Part shown: positions 2,885 to 27,493 of the stretch, piece by piece
Layout: every line of letters begins with the position of its first letter
Position numbering within the stretch: position 1 is the first letter of the stretch
Assembly: GCA_028724545.1 (NCBI GenBank)
Contig: JAQYCU010000048.1
Location: 1-46,647 of the forward strand
Direction: 5' to 3'
Length of the DNA: 46,647 nt
DNA from: a bacterium
GTDB lineage: Bacteria; Bacillota; Clostridia; Lachnospirales; Lachnospiraceae
Notes under the pieces: generated by a model
The model's input: the letters and a program-made list of their open reading frames with translations, nothing else
Databases searched by the model: none
What the model was told of the DNA's origin: nothing
Made by a program: the position numbers and the translations under genes

Positions 2885-2914
2885 CGTTGCTTTATCTAAA
2901 AAAAGAAAGCAACG
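2885..2914 (+). promoter_or_regulatory. Hairpin just upstream of the thiI ribosome site
   Basis: CGTTGCTTT (2885-2893) pairs perfectly with AAAGCAACG (2906-2914) across a 12-nt adenine-rich loop. The stem ends 6 nt before the GAGGA ribosome site (2921-2925) of thiI. It lacks a U tract, so it is more likely an mRNA stability or translation element than a terminator. Confidence 0.45.
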
Positions 2915-2929
2915 GGAAATGAGGATAAG

Positions 2930-4111
2930 ATGTATCAGGCTTTTTTGTTAAAGTATGCAGAAATAGGAATTAAAGGGAAAAACCGTTATAAGTTTGAAAA
3001 TGCTCTTTGCGAGCAGATTCGTTATCGGTTGGAAAAAATCGAAGGCGATTTTGAGGTTATCCGGGAACAGGGAAGAATTTTTGTAGAAGCAAAAGGTGAG
3101 TTTGACTTCGATGATGCGATTGAAGCTATGAGCCGTGTGTTTGGTGTTTCTTCCATCAGTCCGGTAGAAATGATTGAAGACAAGGAATGGGGCAATCTGA
3201 CAAAAGCTGTTGGTGATTTTGTGGAAAGACAGTATGGTGGACAGAAGTTCACATTCAAAGTGAAATCAAGAAGAAGTGATAAACATTATCCATATACTTC
3301 ACCGGAAATTTGTGTAGAAATGGGAAGTTATCTGTTGGAACGTTTTCCAGAATTATCTGTTGATGTGCACAATCCAGAAGTCTTAATCTGGGTAGAAGTG
3401 CGCGAAAAAGCCTATGTATATTCTAAAGTATATCAGGGAGCATGTGGTATGCCACTTGGTACAAATGGCAAAGCGATGCTTTTGCTGTCGGGTGGAATTG
3501 ACAGTCCGGTTGCAGGATATATGATAGCAAAAAGAGGTGTCTTCATAGATGCTGTTTATTTTCATGCACCACCATATACAAGTGAGAGAGCAAAGCAGAA
3601 GGTAGTAGATTTGGCAAAACTGGTATCGCGTTATGCAGGAAAAATCCGTCTCCATGTTGTGAATTTTACAGATATCCAGATGTATATTTATGAGCAGTGC
3701 CCACATGAGGAACTGACCATTATTATGCGACGTTATATGATGCGCATTGCTGAAACACTGGCAAAGGAAAATGACTGTCTTGGTCTGATTACCGGTGAAA
3801 GCATTGGACAGGTGGCAAGTCAGACAATGCAAAGCCTGGCAGCAACAAATGATGTTTGTGAGTTGCCGGTATACCGTCCGTTAATCGGATTTGACAAGCA
3901 GGAGATAGTAGATATTTCGGAAAAAATTGGAACATACGAAACATCCATACAGCCATATGAAGACTGTTGTACTATTTTTGTCGCAAAACATCCTGTGACA
4001 AAACCGAATATCAAGGTGATTCGCCGTTCCGAGGAAAAACTGACAGAAAAGATAGACCAGATGGTGCAGGAAGCACTGGATACGGTAGAAGTAATAGAAA
4101 TTGCTGAATAA
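2930..4111 (+). CDS. thiI: tRNA 4-thiouridine synthase ThiI (short form)
   Basis: ThiI adenylates U8 of tRNA and inserts sulfur to give 4-thiouridine; in some species it also supplies sulfur for thiamine. The 393-residue product has an N-terminal ferredoxin-like region, a THUMP domain (about residues 60-165) and a PP-loop ATPase domain with LSGGIDSPVAGYM (SGGIDS at 187-192). A conserved cysteine pair in YEDCCTIFVAKHP (346-347) is present. The C-terminal rhodanese domain of the enterobacterial enzyme is absent, as is usual in Firmicutes, where the neighbouring desulfurase delivers the persulfide directly. ATG 2930 has GAGGA at 2921-2925. Confidence 0.96.
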   Translation: MYQAFLLKYAEIGIKGKNRYKFENALCEQIRYRLEKIEGDFEVIREQGRIFVEAKGEFDFDDAIEAMSRVFGVSSISPVEMIEDKEWGNLTKAVGDFVERQYGGQKFTFKVKSRRSDKHYPYTSPEICVEMGSYLLERFPELSVDVHNPEVLIWVEVREKAYVYSKVYQGACGMPLGTNGKAMLLLSGGIDSPVAGYMIAKRGVFIDAVYFHAPPYTSERAKQKVVDLAKLVSRYAGKIRLHVVNFTDIQMYIYEQCPHEELTIIMRRYMMRIAETLAKENDCLGLITGESIGQVASQTMQSLAATNDVCELPVYRPLIGFDKQEIVDISEKIGTYETSIQPYEDCCTIFVAKHPVTKPNIKVIRRSEEKLTEKIDQMVQEALDTVEVIEIAE

Positions 4112-21000: not shown

Positions 21001-21831
21001 ATGGATACTTTAGCATTAAAAAAGACTGCAAATGAAGTACGTAAAGGTATTGTAACAGCTGTACACAGTGCAAAATCCGGTCATCCGGGTGGTTCGTTGT
21101 CTGCAGCAGATATTTTGACTTATCTGTATTTTGAGGAGATGAATGTTGACCCGAAAGACCCAAAGAAGGCTGACAGAGACCGTATGGTACTTTCCAAAGG
21201 TCATATTGCTCCGGGACTTTATTCTACACTGGCACAGAGAGGGTTCTTCCCAGTTGAAGATTTAAAAACACTTCGTCATGTAGGTTCTTACTTACAGGGA
21301 CATCCGGATATGAAACACATTCCTGGTGTTGATATGTCCAGTGGTTCTTTGGGACAGGGTGGCTCAGCAGCAGTAGGTATGGCTCTGGCAGGTAAAATGG
21401 ACAATGCACCTTATCGTGTATATTGTCTGTTTGGTGACGGTGAGATTCAGGAAGGCCAGGTATGGGAAGCAGCTATGTTTGCAGGTGCCCATAAGTTAGA
21501 TAACCTTGTATTTATTGTTGATAACAATGGTTTGCAGATTGATGGAAATATCGAGGATGTATGTTCTCCATATCCAATTGCTGATAAATTTAAAGCATTC
21601 AATTTTAATGTTGTTGAAATTGATGCACATGATTTTGACCAGATTGCAGATGCATTCAAAAATGCAAGAGAAACAAAGGGAATGCCGACAGCAATTATTG
21701 CTAAGAGCGTAAAGGGAAAAGGCGTATCATTTATGGAGAACCAGGCTAGCTGGCATGGAAGTGCTCCAAATGATGAGCAGTATGAGCAGGCAATGGCAGA
21801 CCTTGAAAAAATCGGCGAGAGTTTATCATAG
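21001..21831 (+). CDS. Transketolase, N-terminal (TPP-binding) subunit
   Basis: Transketolase is split into two genes here, as in many Clostridia and archaea. This 276-residue subunit holds the thiamine pyrophosphate domain. Motifs are SAKSGHPGGSLSAADILTYL, LSKGHIAPGLYSTLA, SSGSLGQGGSAAVGMALAGK, the metal/TPP motif GDGEIQEGQVWEAAMFAG, and DNNGLQIDG. It transfers two-carbon units between ketoses and aldoses, together with the C-terminal subunit encoded 55 bp downstream. AAAGGAAAG precedes ATG 21001. The C-terminal end is complete for this split type. Confidence 0.96.
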   Translation: MDTLALKKTANEVRKGIVTAVHSAKSGHPGGSLSAADILTYLYFEEMNVDPKDPKKADRDRMVLSKGHIAPGLYSTLAQRGFFPVEDLKTLRHVGSYLQGHPDMKHIPGVDMSSGSLGQGGSAAVGMALAGKMDNAPYRVYCLFGDGEIQEGQVWEAAMFAGAHKLDNLVFIVDNNGLQIDGNIEDVCSPYPIADKFKAFNFNVVEIDAHDFDQIADAFKNARETKGMPTAIIAKSVKGKGVSFMENQASWHGSAPNDEQYEQAMADLEKIGESLS

Positions 21832-21886
21832 GCAAAAGGAAGAAAGAGCGAATATGCAGATGCATACGCGAGAATGGAGGAGAAAA

Positions 21887-22828
21887 ATGTCAGACGTTAA
21901 GAAAATCGCTACTAGAGAAAGTTATGGTAACGCATTAACTGAACTTGCACCAGATTATCCGAATCTGGTAGTATTAGATGCTGACCTTGCGGCAGCAACG
22001 AAGACGGGTATTTTTAAGAAAGCATATCCGGACAGACATATTGATTGTGGTATTGCAGAGAGCAATATGGTAGGTATTGCAGCAGGACTTGCTACTACCG
22101 GTAAGATTCCTTTTGTCAGTTCTTTTGCCATGTTTGCAGCAGGACGTGCCTTTGAACAGGTTCGTAACTCTGTAGGATATCCAAAGTTAAATGTGAAAAT
22201 CGGTGCAACACATGCAGGTATCTCTGTAGGTGAAGATGGTGCTACCCATCAGTGTTGTGAAGATATCGCATTAATGCGCACGATTCCGGGAATGGTTGTT
22301 ATGAATCCGGCAGATGATATTGAAGCAAAGGCAGCAGTCAAGGCAGCACTTGACCATCAGGGACCGGTTTATATCCGTTTTGGAAGACTCGCAGTACCTG
22401 TTATCAATGACACACCGGATTACAAATTTGAATTAGGAAAAGGTGTTGTACTTCGTGAAGGTAAAGATGTTACATTAGTTGCTACCGGATTGGAAGTAAG
22501 TGAAACACTTGAAGCAGCAGAAAAATTAGCAGCAGACGGAATTGATGCAAAAGTTATCAACATCCATACAATTAAGCCTTTGGATGAAGACCTGATTGTA
22601 GCTGCAGCAAAAGAAACAGGAAAAGTTGTTACGATTGAAGAACATTCTGTTATCGGTGGTTTAGGTAGTGCCGTATGTGACTGCTTATCAGCAAAAGCAC
22701 CGACTCAGGTATTAAAAATCGGCGTAAATGATACATTTGGTGGGTCTGGTCCGGCTGTTGAACTGATTAAGAAGTACGGTCTGGATGCAGAAGGAATTTA
22801 TGCAAAAGTAAAAGAATTTATGGCATAG
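21887..22828 (+). CDS. Transketolase, C-terminal subunit
   Basis: The 313-residue subunit carries the pyrimidine-binding and C-terminal transketolase domains. Motifs include ATRESYGNALTEL, VVLDADLAAATKT, the catalytic glutamate in DCGIAESNMVGIAAGLA, KIGATHAGISVGEDGATHQ, VYIRFGRLAVP and VTIEEHSVIGGLGSAV. With the preceding gene it forms one active transketolase. ATG 21887 is chosen because GGAGGAG lies 5-10 nt upstream; the frame is open to 21755, but that stretch overlaps the previous gene. An intrinsic terminator follows at 22894. Confidence 0.95.
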   Translation: MSDVKKIATRESYGNALTELAPDYPNLVVLDADLAAATKTGIFKKAYPDRHIDCGIAESNMVGIAAGLATTGKIPFVSSFAMFAAGRAFEQVRNSVGYPKLNVKIGATHAGISVGEDGATHQCCEDIALMRTIPGMVVMNPADDIEAKAAVKAALDHQGPVYIRFGRLAVPVINDTPDYKFELGKGVVLREGKDVTLVATGLEVSETLEAAEKLAADGIDAKVINIHTIKPLDEDLIVAAAKETGKVVTIEEHSVIGGLGSAVCDCLSAKAPTQVLKIGVNDTFGGSGPAVELIKKYGLDAEGIYAKVKEFMA

Positions 22829-23019: not shown

Positions 23020-23090
23020 AGACAGAGGTTTTGCGTTGCAAAAGGAATGTAAAACCGGTAATGAGGGAAGTGAAAAAGACAGGAGGAGTT

Positions 23091-23573
23091 ATGGAAAAAG
23101 AAGAAAAAGTATTTCAGAAATTAAGCAAAAAAGCAAGAGGCTGTATGCTGGTCAATGAGATTATACTGGCAGGTATCTGTACGATTATACTGGCGATTGT
23201 ATGGGTAAAATGGAAAGATACTTTAGCTGTTGCAAACTGGATTTGGGCAATCGTGGCAGTCGTCTGGGTTATTTCCCTGATTGCACCATTTTTCCGGTAT
23301 GAACGTTACCGGTATTGTTTCTCGAATGAAGATATTGATGTCATAGAAGGATTTTTGTTTGTTGAAAGAAACATTGTGCCTATCGAGCGTCTGCATAAAG
23401 TTGCGATGGAAAGTGGTCCGATTGACCGGATTTTTGGGCTTGCCAAAGTGCTTGTGACAACGGCAGGTGGTGATGTTACCATTCGTTTTCTGGAAAAAGA
23501 AGTCGCTGAGCAGATTGTGGAAACACTGAAAACGAGAATTAATCAATATGCAGTGATGCAAAGAGAGGGGTAA
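23091..23573 (+). CDS. Bacterial PH-domain membrane protein, YdbS-like
   Basis: The 160-residue protein has two hydrophobic segments (about residues 19-40 and 47-66) and then one bPH2 domain (about 72-150). Family features are FRYERYRYCFSNEDIDVIEG and the strand FLFVERNIVPIERLHKVAM, where the conserved P-ER-H core is clear, then GPIDRIFGLAKVLVTTAGG. YdbS and YdbT occur as adjacent pairs in Firmicutes; in Bacillus they affect antimicrobial peptide resistance and membrane stress, but the mechanism is unsettled. ATG 23091 is used with AGGAGG at 23081-23086. The YdbT-like gene starts 2 bp after its stop. Confidence 0.87.
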   Translation: MEKEEKVFQKLSKKARGCMLVNEIILAGICTIILAIVWVKWKDTLAVANWIWAIVAVVWVISLIAPFFRYERYRYCFSNEDIDVIEGFLFVERNIVPIERLHKVAMESGPIDRIFGLAKVLVTTAGGDVTIRFLEKEVAEQIVETLKTRINQYAVMQREG

Positions 23574-23575
23574 AT

Positions 23576-25177
23576 ATGGTAACAGAAGAAAATAGTATCC
23601 AGATGAGAAATCATATTACATATGTTATCGAAAAAATGTGGGTTGTTTTTCTGCTGGTGATGGCAGTTCTGCTGGGGGATGAAGATTCTATTTTGTTGGG
23701 AATCGAACTGCTTAAAAAAGGAAATATTGTGCAGGGACTTCTGGTAATTGGTGGTGCCGTTGTTATCCTGCTGATTGTTTGCCTCTGGTATGTAAATCGC
23801 TGGTATCGTACAACATTTACGATAAAAGATGGGACAATTATTTATGACAGGGCAACCTTAAAGCATTATGTGAATACGATTTCCATTGCAAATGTTTCTA
23901 ATGTCAATTTAGAGCAGAACATTTTTGAAATGATTGTAGGAACCTATAAGGTAAAGGTCGATACGAATAGTTTGTCCACGGCAGACGAAACAGATATAGA
24001 GATTATTTTAAAGAAAAAAGATGCTCTCTGGGTAAAGCAGGAAATTCTTTCTAAAATGAATGAATTGCAAAAGGACGCAGAAGGAAAGGGAGAATCAGAG
24101 GAAGCACCAGTACAGCAGAATGGGATGGTACAGCAGGAGGCTGAAGAAAAAACATTTGATATTGTATATTCCGTAAAACAGGTTTTGCAGAATACATTGT
24201 TGTCCATATCAATTGTTCAGGTTCTGGCTGTTTTAGCACTCTGTGTTTTCAGTGTTATTATGGCGATAGGTTCGTTTGTAGAAGGAAAAGGCCTGATGTT
24301 ATCCACCATATCAGTTATTTCTGCGGTGGCTTTGGTTATCTTCTATCTGTTGGCTCTGCTAAAGCCGGCATTGCGTGACTATCAGTTTCGTGCCAGAAGA
24401 GAACGGGACAAAATATATGTCAAAAGTGGTCTGTTTACAAAAAATGAATATGTCATCCCTATCGCTAAGATTAATGCCGTTTCGTTGGAATATAGTTTTA
24501 TCGGCAGAGTGTTTAAAAGAGGTTTTGTGAAAGTGATTAACATAGGAGGAGAAGGAGAAGAAGCCGGAGGGGTAAAGATTCTCCTGACAGATTCTTATGA
24601 GGAACTGACCCGGAAAATGCAGATTCTTTTACCGGAATATGCATTACCGGAAATGAAACAGTTAAAGCGTCAGCCACTGAAAGCATTTGTTCTCAAAATG
24701 TTAAGAAATGTTTTTTATATCATATGTCTTGTTGCTGGTTTTCTTGGTGCCATGCTGGTTATCGAAAGTCATGGTAAGCAGCAGGAAAGCATTGCAGGAA
24801 TGATAAATGAGATATTTAGCAAACGAGAACAATTTGCAATGGGCATCATATTGTTAGTGATTCTGGCGATTATCACACTGATTTCTTTATTAACATACTG
24901 TACGGTGGGATTATATCAGAGTCAGGAAAAAATAGTGTTGGCAAGGGGAACATTTGCCAGGAGAATTATGAGTATTTCATATGACAAAGTGCAATATATA
25001 ACAAAAAACCAGGGACCTGTCGCAAGAAAACTGGGACTATGCCGGGGTAGCCTTTCATTGCTGGCTGGCGCATTGAACCAGATACAGGCAATTGGTTGTT
25101 ATAATATAGATGTTTTTAATAGGATGGAAGAAAATTTTTATCAAAACTATCATAGAGAGGAAGACGAAAAGCAATAA
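23576..25177 (+). CDS. Bacterial PH-domain membrane protein, YdbT-like
   Basis: The 533-residue protein contains repeated units of a transmembrane pair plus a bPH2 domain. The first PH unit includes WYRTTFTIKDGTIIYDRAT and ISIANVSNVNLEQNIFEMIV. The second has YVKSGLFTKNEYVIPIAKI and GRVFKRGFVKVINIGG. The third has LARGTFARRIMSISYDKVQ and GLCRGSLSLLAGA. Membrane pairs lie near residues 16-80, 200-260 and 375-435. A Glu/Gln-rich spacer (about 165-190) follows PH1. Function is inferred only from the YdbS/YdbT family. Its stop TAA overlaps the ATG of the transporter gene by one base (25175-25179), so translation is coupled. Confidence 0.87.
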   Translation: MVTEENSIQMRNHITYVIEKMWVVFLLVMAVLLGDEDSILLGIELLKKGNIVQGLLVIGGAVVILLIVCLWYVNRWYRTTFTIKDGTIIYDRATLKHYVNTISIANVSNVNLEQNIFEMIVGTYKVKVDTNSLSTADETDIEIILKKKDALWVKQEILSKMNELQKDAEGKGESEEAPVQQNGMVQQEAEEKTFDIVYSVKQVLQNTLLSISIVQVLAVLALCVFSVIMAIGSFVEGKGLMLSTISVISAVALVIFYLLALLKPALRDYQFRARRERDKIYVKSGLFTKNEYVIPIAKINAVSLEYSFIGRVFKRGFVKVINIGGEGEEAGGVKILLTDSYEELTRKMQILLPEYALPEMKQLKRQPLKAFVLKMLRNVFYIICLVAGFLGAMLVIESHGKQQESIAGMINEIFSKREQFAMGIILLVILAIITLISLLTYCTVGLYQSQEKIVLARGTFARRIMSISYDKVQYITKNQGPVARKLGLCRGSLSLLAGALNQIQAIGCYNIDVFNRMEENFYQNYHREEDEKQ

Positions 25178-26721
25178 TGAAAAAAGGAAACAAAAAAAGA
25201 GTAATTTTATACGTGGCAGTTATTGCGGCTCTGCTGATTGGAATTGGTGTGTATCAGTATTACAGTCATCAGGCAGCAAAAAAAGCAGCAGAGAAAGCAG
25301 AACAGAATGCAGTAACCTGTGTGGAAGATTTGGTCGGAAAGAAGATAGGTGTCCAGATTGGTACAACGGGCGATATCTATGCATCTGATTATGAAGGTGA
25401 TGAAGCAGGAACAAAAATCGAGCGTTACAACAAAGGAACCGATGCTGTACAGGCTTTGAAATTAGGAAAAATCAACTGTGTTATCATTGACGAGCAGCCG
25501 GCAAAAGCATATGTCGAAAAGAACAGCGAATTAAAAATCTTAAAAGAAGAATTTGCAAATGAAGAATATGCAATCTGTATTGATAAGTCAAATACGGCTT
25601 TAAAAGAAAAAATTAACAAAGCATTGGCAGAGTTAAAAGAAGACGGTACATTTGAGCAGATTGTCAATTACTACATAGGCAATGAAGAACAGCAGGGAAA
25701 AAATCCATACAAGAAAAAAGATGTAAAGAGAACGGGAACATTAACGATGGCAACAAATGCAGAGTTCCCACCATATGAATATTTTGACAAAGGTACCATT
25801 GTTGGTATTGATGCAGATATTATGCAGGCAATCTGTGACAAAATGGGAATGGAATTAAAAATCGAAAATATGGATTTTGATGCCATAATCACAGCTGTAA
25901 AATCCGGAAAAGCAGATGTTGGTGCTGCCGGTATGACGGTAACAGAAGACCGTTTAAAGAATATCGATTTTTCTGATTCTTATACGACAGCAAAACAGGT
26001 TATCATTGTAAAAGATGCAAAAGCAGATGCAAAAGCCAGCTCCTTTAAGGATTCTTTCTATGATAACTTTATCAAAGAAAACCGTTTTGAGTATCTTGTC
26101 AAAGGTTTTGGAAATACATTACTGATTACCGTATTTGCTATTCTTATCGGTGTTGTTCTGGGATTATTAATTGCCCTGGTGCGTACCAGCCACGACCAGA
26201 ACGGCTCTGTGCCGGTATTAAATGCAATTTGTCATATTTATCTGACGGTAATACGTGGAACGCCGGTAGTTGTACAGTTATTGATTATCTATTATGTCAT
26301 ACTGACATCCGTGCAGAATAAAATCATTGTAGCGATTATTGCATTTGGTTTAAATTCTGCTGCTTATGTGGCAGAGGTTATCCGTTCCGGTATTATGTCT
26401 GTTGACCACGGACAGTTTGAGGCAGGACGCAGTCTGGGACTGAATTACCAGCAGACAATGACATCCATTATTATCCCTCAGGCATTTAAAAACATTCTGC
26501 CTGCTCTGGGTAACGAGTTTATCGTATTAGTAAAAGAAACATCAATCAGTGGATATATTGGTCTGGTTGACCTGACAAAGGGTGGAGATATTATACGAAG
26601 CATCACATATGAAGCATATATGCCTTTATATGCCGTAGCATTGATTTATCTGGTGACAGTTCTGATACTGACAGCAGGTATTCGCTATATTGAAAAACGC
26701 CTTAGAAATAACGAAAGGTAA
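25177..26721 (+). CDS. Amino-acid ABC transporter: permuted binding domain fused to permease
   Basis: The 514-residue polar amino-acid (GlnP/HisM-type) protein has an N-terminal membrane anchor (residues 8-28). Residues 49-168 match the second half of a binding protein (VEDLVGKKIGVQIGTTG, VIIDEQPA, KEDGTFEQIVNYYIG). Residues 187-280 match the first half (LTMATNAEFPPYEYF, NMDFDAIITAVKSGKAD, TEDRLKNIDFSDSY). The permease (about 300-514) has the EAA loop EAGRSLGLNYQQ and then IIIPQAF. The halves are thus in reversed order, a circular permutation. The ligand residues Asp105 and Arg259 are kept, so it is probably active. No separate binding protein is nearby; the ATPase follows at 26753. Confidence 0.88.
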   Translation: MKKGNKKRVILYVAVIAALLIGIGVYQYYSHQAAKKAAEKAEQNAVTCVEDLVGKKIGVQIGTTGDIYASDYEGDEAGTKIERYNKGTDAVQALKLGKINCVIIDEQPAKAYVEKNSELKILKEEFANEEYAICIDKSNTALKEKINKALAELKEDGTFEQIVNYYIGNEEQQGKNPYKKKDVKRTGTLTMATNAEFPPYEYFDKGTIVGIDADIMQAICDKMGMELKIENMDFDAIITAVKSGKADVGAAGMTVTEDRLKNIDFSDSYTTAKQVIIVKDAKADAKASSFKDSFYDNFIKENRFEYLVKGFGNTLLITVFAILIGVVLGLLIALVRTSHDQNGSVPVLNAICHIYLTVIRGTPVVVQLLIIYYVILTSVQNKIIVAIIAFGLNSAAYVAEVIRSGIMSVDHGQFEAGRSLGLNYQQTMTSIIIPQAFKNILPALGNEFIVLVKETSISGYIGLVDLTKGGDIIRSITYEAYMPLYAVALIYLVTVLILTAGIRYIEKRLRNNER

Positions 26722-26752: not shown

Positions 26753-27493
26753 ATGGAGAAAAAAGAAGTATTAATAGAAGTAAAAGATTTATATAAATCA
26801 TTTGGAAAACATAGTGTATTAAAAGGAATCAGCACAACGATTTCAAAGGGCGAAGTGGTAGCAATTATCGGCCCTTCCGGCTGTGGTAAATCTACATTTT
26901 TGCGTTCCCTGAATCTGTTAGAAGAGCCTACAAAAGGTACTGTCCTGTTTGAGGGAACAGATATTACGGATGAGTCAGTTGATATTAACCAGATGCGTGA
27001 AAAAATGGGAATGGTATTTCAGCAGTTTAATCTGTTCCCGAATATGACAATTCGTGAGAATATTATGCTTGCTCCTGTAAAACGCAAAATTATGACAAAA
27101 GAAGAAGCGGTAAAGAAAGCAGATGAACTGTTAGAGCGAATCGGTCTTTTGGAAAAAGCAGATGCGTATCCGGCACAGTTGTCGGGTGGACAAAAACAGC
27201 GTATTGCCATTATCCGTGCTCTTGCAATGAACCCGGATGTAATGTTGTTTGATGAGCCGACTTCTGCACTGGACCCGGAAATGGTAGGGGAAGTGCTGGA
27301 AGTTATGAAAGAACTGGCAGCAGAAGGTATGACAATGGTAGTTGTTACTCATGAAATGGGATTTGCAAGAGAAGTTGCCAACCGTGTAATTTTCCTTAAC
27401 GACGGTATGATTCAGGAGGAAAACAGTCCGGAAGAATTGTTTGAAAATCCACAGAACCAGCGCCTACAGGAATTTTTATCAAAAGTATTGTAG
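26753..27493 (+). CDS. Amino-acid ABC transporter ATP-binding protein (GlnQ/HisP type)
   Basis: This 246-residue ATPase powers the fused binding-domain/permease encoded 31 bp upstream. It has Walker [11 protein letters not shown]-loop [12 protein letters not shown], signature LSGGQKQR, Walker [16 protein letters not shown] and the H-loop [21 protein letters not shown] and THEMGFARE are characteristic of polar amino-acid uptake systems. AAAGGA lies about 12 nt before ATG 26753. The exact amino acid carried is not readable; glutamine, arginine and cystine relatives share these motifs. Confidence 0.94.

Follow-up and report, generated by a model that had tools for sequence, protein, structure and literature searches.

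Natural circular permutation of the binding protein of an ATP-binding cassette (ABC) importer has been described for TpMglB-2 (Tp0684), a membrane-tethered protein designated "Type Ic"; its authors also note homologues in Gram-positive bacteria and suggest a rationale based on anchoring (PMC4990184). Circular-permutation relations have also been reported for the glycine-betaine binding proteins OpuAC (2b4l) and ProX (1r9l and 1sw1), and the pairs in the figure are far diverged, with less than 24% identity (PMC2395249). Here we describe an importer gene of the Lachnospiraceae contig JAQYCU010000048.1 (25177-26721, + strand, as are all features of the gene given below), located in a window of 46,647 nucleotides, by which we mean the whole stretch of DNA analysed. 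Its 514 aa product resembles TpMglB-2 in that the binding domain is naturally permuted (by sequence), bilobed (by prediction) and tethered (by hydropathy). However, TpMglB-2 has a type I sugar fold with its ends in the N lobe, whereas the window protein has a type II polar-amino-acid fold with its ends in lobe 2, and the window's family differs further in having three cut sites among its relatives and a permease fusion. In GlnPQ-type fusions (PDB 6h30) binding domains precede a GlnP-type permease, as in the window, but these are whole domains in canonical order, whereas the window protein has its halves in reversed order. The solved binding domains nearest to it in sequence include Thermotoga maritima ArgBP and AncQR, and the isolated lobes of ArgBP supply the lobe borders used below; unlike the window protein, both are stand-alone and canonical in order. 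Among the entries listed by searches of an open-access library that lacks most subscription papers, none describes permuted binding proteins for polar amino acids; the transporter terms looked for were absent from PMC12667903 and PMC11757225, and "permut" does not occur in PMC2861598. Natural permutation of binding proteins is thus already known, and what is new here, as far as these entries show, is its occurrence in polar-amino-acid importers.

The reversed order of the two halves in the window gene is real, as the initial annotation had claimed on the basis of the sequence. The protein matches SBP_bac_3 (Pfam) in two stretches with 128.7 bits (curated cut-off 26.4). In alignment with AncQR (4zv1), window residues 186-283 correspond to chain residues 9-107 (E-value: 1.5e-23) and residues 44-168 to chain residues 107-232 (E-value: 5.9e-24), a reversal far beyond chance that is also seen relative to Thermotoga ArgBP. 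The half placed first (residues 47-168, 25315..25680) is the second half of a canonical domain and consists of the main part of lobe 2, hinge crossing 2 and the C-terminal helices of lobe 1. The half placed second (residues 187-281, 25735..26019; phmmer match to 4zv1 9-107, SBP_bac_3 match at 189-283, lobe border from 6gpm) consists of the lobe 1 core, hinge crossing 1 and the first strand of lobe 2 (275-281). The gap between them, at residues 169-186 (25681..25734), is an 18-residue linker between the old C- and N-termini, at the position first proposed. A connector (residues 282-305, 26020..26091) leads from the end of the binding domain to the first helix of a HEQRo/GlnP-type permease domain (residues 306-514, 26092..26718), which is followed by the stop codon (26719-26721). 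This permease, whose fusion to the binding domain had also been recognized, matches BPD_transp_1 (PF00528) at residues 325-510 (83.8 bits, cut-off 26.4), TIGR01726 for HEQRo-type permeases (69.9 bits, cut-off 42.2) and 4yms (161.7 bits). As the halves ahead of the permease are in reversed order, the protein does not show the canonical GlnP-type pattern. Among the best 60 of 427 PDB matches to the permuted profile, the only entry with its best match across the junction is the tandem GlnPQ construct 6h30, in which the match runs on from one domain to its neighbour. The family match of the binding domain is SBP_bac_3 and its sequence matches are amino-acid binding proteins, not the type I sugar-binding family; OpuAC is not among the Pfam matches up to an E-value of 0.001. 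An adjacent ATPase gene (26753..27493, + strand) matches PF00005 (139.2 bits, cut-off 25) and NF007027 (327 bits); because the latter score is under the equivalog cut-off of 379, the ATPase is described as GlnQ-like and the GlnQ name is not assigned. We assign a probability of roughly 0.88 to the reading that the window protein is a polar-amino-acid ABC importer with a naturally permuted binding domain.

Solved lobe borders locate the cut. The isolated and crystallised lobe 2 of Thermotoga ArgBP (6gpm) starts matching at the equivalent of Gln275 and also matches window residues 47-128, and matches to three lobe-1-sized constructs (6gpc, 6y16 and 7a99) end at residue 271; the strand at 275-281 is therefore attributed to lobe 2. 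As the half starting at residue 187 runs to about residue 281 and ends with this strand (QVIIVK), both new ends of the domain lie in lobe 2. The cut is thus inside lobe 2, just past the hinge, and by these borders both hinge crossings are intact. The initial annotation had instead put the new ends at the hinge, with both hinge strands tethered to the membrane. The lobe borders contradict the former by placing both ends in lobe 2, and in place of the latter it is the tether that has changed its attachment, from lobe 1 in canonical domains to lobe 2. On the whole, the initial annotation is partly supported. An AlphaFold2 model (pLDDT, the predicted local distance difference test score, 83; pTM, the predicted template modelling score, 0.79) is consistent with one bilobed fold. 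It matches bilobed binding proteins across the whole length, not two separate incomplete domains. The top-scoring whole-length match is OpuAC 2b4l, although the glycine-betaine binding proteins belong to a ligand family other than that of the window protein. The VIA-align comparison is a re-examination of Foldseek's list and not a blind search, and a single-sequence fold of the whole protein was unusable (pLDDT 38.5).

The model also bears on a distinctly improbable arrangement in which the halves do not pair within one chain and each permease chain of the dimer would complete the domain of its partner. Fusion to the permease would imply two copies of the binding domain per transporter, and segment swapping is possible for lobe constructs made from a type I binding protein (PMC9815098). 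However, it is a single chain that was modelled with whole bilobed matches, and the linkers of stand-alone proteins (median 18 residues in 60 units) are as long as those of permease-fused ones (median 19 residues in 32 units) with no permease chain to bring a partner. By the sequence, the solved lobe borders and the structure prediction, the path of the chain leads into lobe 2, over hinge 2 to lobe 1, through the linker and the rest of lobe 1, and over hinge 1 back to lobe 2, from which the chain exits into the permease. At the other end, the N-terminal anchor (residues 5-30, 25189..25266; hydropathy maximum 2.35 over 19 residues) seems to be uncleaved, and it is read as a signal anchor because no lipobox was found after it and ahead of the binding domain with a loose pattern. 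While canonical domains hang from lobe 1, the window domain would therefore hang from lobe 2 at both ends, by the anchor and by the permease.

The two ligand residues, Asp105 (25489-25491) in the half placed first and Arg259 (25951-25953) in the half placed second, are both present, as first reported. The equivalent residues of GlnBP and ArgBP grip the amino acid. Among relatives, Arg259 is kept in 196/197 units and Asp105 in 188/197, with gaps making up most of the nine exceptions. Permuted pairs are under purifying selection: the ratio of nonsynonymous to synonymous substitution rates (dN/dS) is 0.08-0.15 in 15 pairs of permuted permease fusions of genus g154 and 0.17 in one stand-alone permuted pair. 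It is thus very hard to credit that the gene encodes a decaying or non-transport protein, whether a fused remnant with a non-working binding domain or a pure sensor: dN/dS is low in the permuted relatives, the ligand residues are kept, the permease matches its full profile and the ATPase gene is adjacent. Instead, the permuted domain would work as an ordinary Venus flytrap, with Asp105 and Arg259 clamping the amino and carboxylate groups of the amino acid as the lobes close, and the closed domain would then dock on a permease homodimer powered by the adjacent ATPase.

The reversed order is widespread among relatives. Within the family, 178/200 genomes have a binding-domain match at an E-value of 1e-10 or better (canonical proteins included). 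Reading the fetched loci with one model for each half verified the order of the window, either once or in tandem, in 44/200 family genomes and a second permuted order in 14/200, with no genome verified for both; because only fetched loci could be verified, 44 and 14 are lower bounds. In the window's genus, 22/28 genomes match at 1e-20 or better, and the permuted permease fusion was verified in 10/28 (the window and nine fetched loci), with two further genomes looking the same from the match table. At 1e-40 or better, the permuted profile matches 78/246 genomes of the order, 92/291 of the class and 19/398 of the phylum, counts that pool canonical and permuted matches. Public contigs of a Roseburia sp. 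metagenome-assembled genome (MAG; L038) and a Lachnospiraceae MAG (L039) carry the same fusion with 63 and 72% identity, respectively, in the best segment; two other public contigs (L043 and L044) carry canonical relatives. The chance of an assembly artefact or chimeric contig is negligible, since the order recurs in dozens of assemblies, including nine other genomes of the same genus, and in L038 and L039; assembly error, which the initial annotation had named as a danger, is rejected on this recurrence across many assemblies. In most relatives' loci an ATPase open reading frame (ORF) lies downstream of the importer. Of 148 permuted units, 99 either stand alone with the window's cut site or are cut elsewhere, and permutation is therefore neither a one-off nor tied to permease fusion. 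The window's own genome holds, beyond the gene itself, one canonical-order binding-domain/permease fusion (L002) and weaker matches, and the idea that the missing halves lie elsewhere in the genome was set aside on this basis. Viral contigs yielded one relative, in canonical order. No plasmid record covers a permuted query in one piece among the best 10 of 247 and the best 12 of 1157 matches: the former cover 59-64% of it and the latter need two pieces.

If the first half is called A and the two portions of the second half B1 and B2, the canonical order is A-B1-B2 and that of the window B1-B2-A. Two other permuted orders were found, B2-A-B1 in 33 ORFs and B1b-B2-A-B1a in three, at least one gene in these counts having been fetched twice (L078 and L115). 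Their cuts are placed near window residues 117-119 and 72, respectively, so that three cut sites are recognizable among relatives, all of them in lobe 2. Canonical ends both lie in lobe 1, and every permuted type observed therefore has its tether on the other lobe. Lobe-1 cuts were not seen, yet they could be missed, as the first half is unsplit in the models and loci were chosen by a permuted query. In the B2-A-B1 type the lipobox cysteine can sit directly before B2 (e.g. L061 and L134). A lipobox, identified by the same loose pattern, precedes the domain in 36/37 B2-A-B1 units, 51/60 stand-alone and 26/40 permease-fused B1-B2-A units, 2/2 units of the third type, and 38/42 stand-alone and 1/3 fused canonical units; most units therefore look like ready-made lipoproteins. 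Permuted domains also occur in tandem (B-A-B-A-permease and B-A-B-A-B-A-permease) and in single-chain forms that add the ATPase. The latter encode an ABC importer in one ORF of 910-1151 aa, in which permease and ATPase are joined to a single permuted binding domain or to two of them (L081:2588-6001, L167:763-4215, L169:2222-4951 and L170:1078-3843). Other arrangements include two neighbouring permuted binding-protein genes before one permease (L021:457-1254 and 1402-2217) and a 619-aa ORF that ends in a permuted binding domain, behind 388 other residues (L138:1498-3354). The ATPases beside the B2-A-B1 binding proteins of L199, L200, L201 and L203 (276 aa) match in two pieces, which suggests an insertion of approximately 30 residues. 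In L084 the binding protein occupies two adjacent ORFs, one with A and the start of B1 (2271-2888) and one with the rest of B1 and B2 (2892-3170), and appears to be a broken or split gene.

One view of how such orders arise comes from genus g358 (family f66). G492 and G628 carry a B2-A-B1 gene at the locus where G518, G588 and G566 have a canonical gene, with upstream genes in common; for G685 and G667, canonical members of the same genus, only the importer genes are common in the stretch fetched. The signal peptides of G492 and G518 are alike at 18/23 residues, while the last 50 residues are relocated in G492 to just behind the lipobox (DNA blocks with 81 and 83% identity). The G492 linker still resembles the old C-terminus (KYIPS) followed by the old mature N-terminus (FTTIEEGKLIMATNA versus FTTVESGKLIMATNA), and the G492 permuted unit shares 80.7% identity with a canonical unit of its own genus but 64.1% with the best-matching unit of its permuted type from other families. 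A further relative (L047:3413-6331, - strand) has three canonical binding domains fused in frame to its permease; these share 93-94% identity with one another (about 86% at the DNA level) and 73-77% with the first half of the window domain. If the outer parts of an array like this were trimmed off, the order seen in the window would result. These two cases lend indirect support to the initial annotation's tandem ancestor, that is, an in-frame tandem duplication of the binding domain with subsequent loss of the outer parts, in which the trimming step remains an inferred one. An apparent 1.5-copy intermediate (A-B-A-permease; L151/L166) was set aside because the contig ends within the first half, and no other intermediate was found.

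Phylogenies also point to repeated change, with at least 11 order changes on the binding-domain tree (152 rows) and at least 17 on the permease tree (145 rows), each with many weak branches. In a careful 58-row tree the window's type needs three changes and forms a single clade in 0/200 bootstrap trees. Rows were thinned at 82% identity for the binding-domain tree, at 85% for the permease tree, and at 70% with a closeness filter for the 58-row tree. Unit and tree counts leave out L088, L003, L004 and L008 (repeats), L151 (which ends mid-domain), L150 (third type, genus of L149), L159-L164 (second matches of genes already included), two ORFs each of L084, L166 and L176 (orders outside any one class) and exact repeats. 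A single clade of all permuted forms is rejected on two proteins (approximately unbiased (AU) test, p 0.018 and 0.002). Permutation thus appears to have occurred more than once among these clostridial relatives. A single ancient permutation, with later cut-site shifts and reversions to canonical order, seems unlikely given this rejection and the in situ case inside g358. Cut-site shifts may nonetheless occur, as L143 (window's type) is sister to the third type (L149 and L155; support 99), and the tests do not clearly reject a single origin for the window's type. With recurrence preferred, it is conceivable, though doubtful, that permutation is an ongoing process in which duplication and trimming repeatedly give functional permutants, and that selection favours lobe-2 cuts since these transfer the membrane tether from lobe 1 onto lobe 2 and so alter the way in which the flytrap sits above a symmetric permease. 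Permutants may have been kept because flexible tethers would make the change nearly neutral.

Several observations weigh against our interpretation. The AlphaFold2 model was built on nine sequences, the linker is one of the regions predicted with less confidence (pLDDT blocks 64 and 78), and its whole-length structural matches share only 6-15% identity. We attribute this low identity to the alignment program, which preserves chain order and would pair opposite lobes by their pseudo-symmetry, and the matches therefore speak for the bilobed fold and not for residue-by-residue equivalence. Six pairs within the window's genus are saturated at synonymous sites, so no dN/dS ratio is given there. A single clade of the second type is not rejected in two of three tests (AU p 0.229 and 0.136) and is rejected at p 0.00076 with congeneric canonical rows added; for a single clade of the window's type p is 0.047, 0.072 and 0.065, and this type may have arisen more than once. 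The values 0.00076 and 0.065 come from 41 rows hand-picked to include congeneric canonical and permuted rows, and they apply to groups chosen after seeing the tree. Finally, no remnants of deleted half-domains were found in the 900 bases around stand-alone genes, where the significant matches are neighbouring intact copies.

The ATG of the importer ORF shares one base with the stop codon of the gene before it, the second of two bacterial PH domain (bPH_2) genes immediately upstream (window 23031-25177); ahead of this ATG the open frame continues for 7 codons only. A relative of this second bPH_2 gene lies upstream in L210 only among the other fetched loci, most of which have short flanks. Farther away, a transketolase is split over two overlapping ORFs (window 21001-22828), one with the N-terminal part and the other with the pyrimidine and C-terminal parts, and these adjoin a transaldolase-like gene.

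In the published cases of natural permutation in binding proteins that were found, a large divergence separates the permuted protein from its canonical counterparts. In the present case, both orders occur within one protein family, once in one genus at the same locus, and are accompanied by a tandem-repeat relative. Annotation that reads domains in order gives two half matches for each such protein, which may then be mistaken for a tandem or broken domain. Because the permuted and canonical pairs are close, both the change of order and the effect of the tether shift can be tested, and a rarely caught kind of protein evolution is open to direct study.
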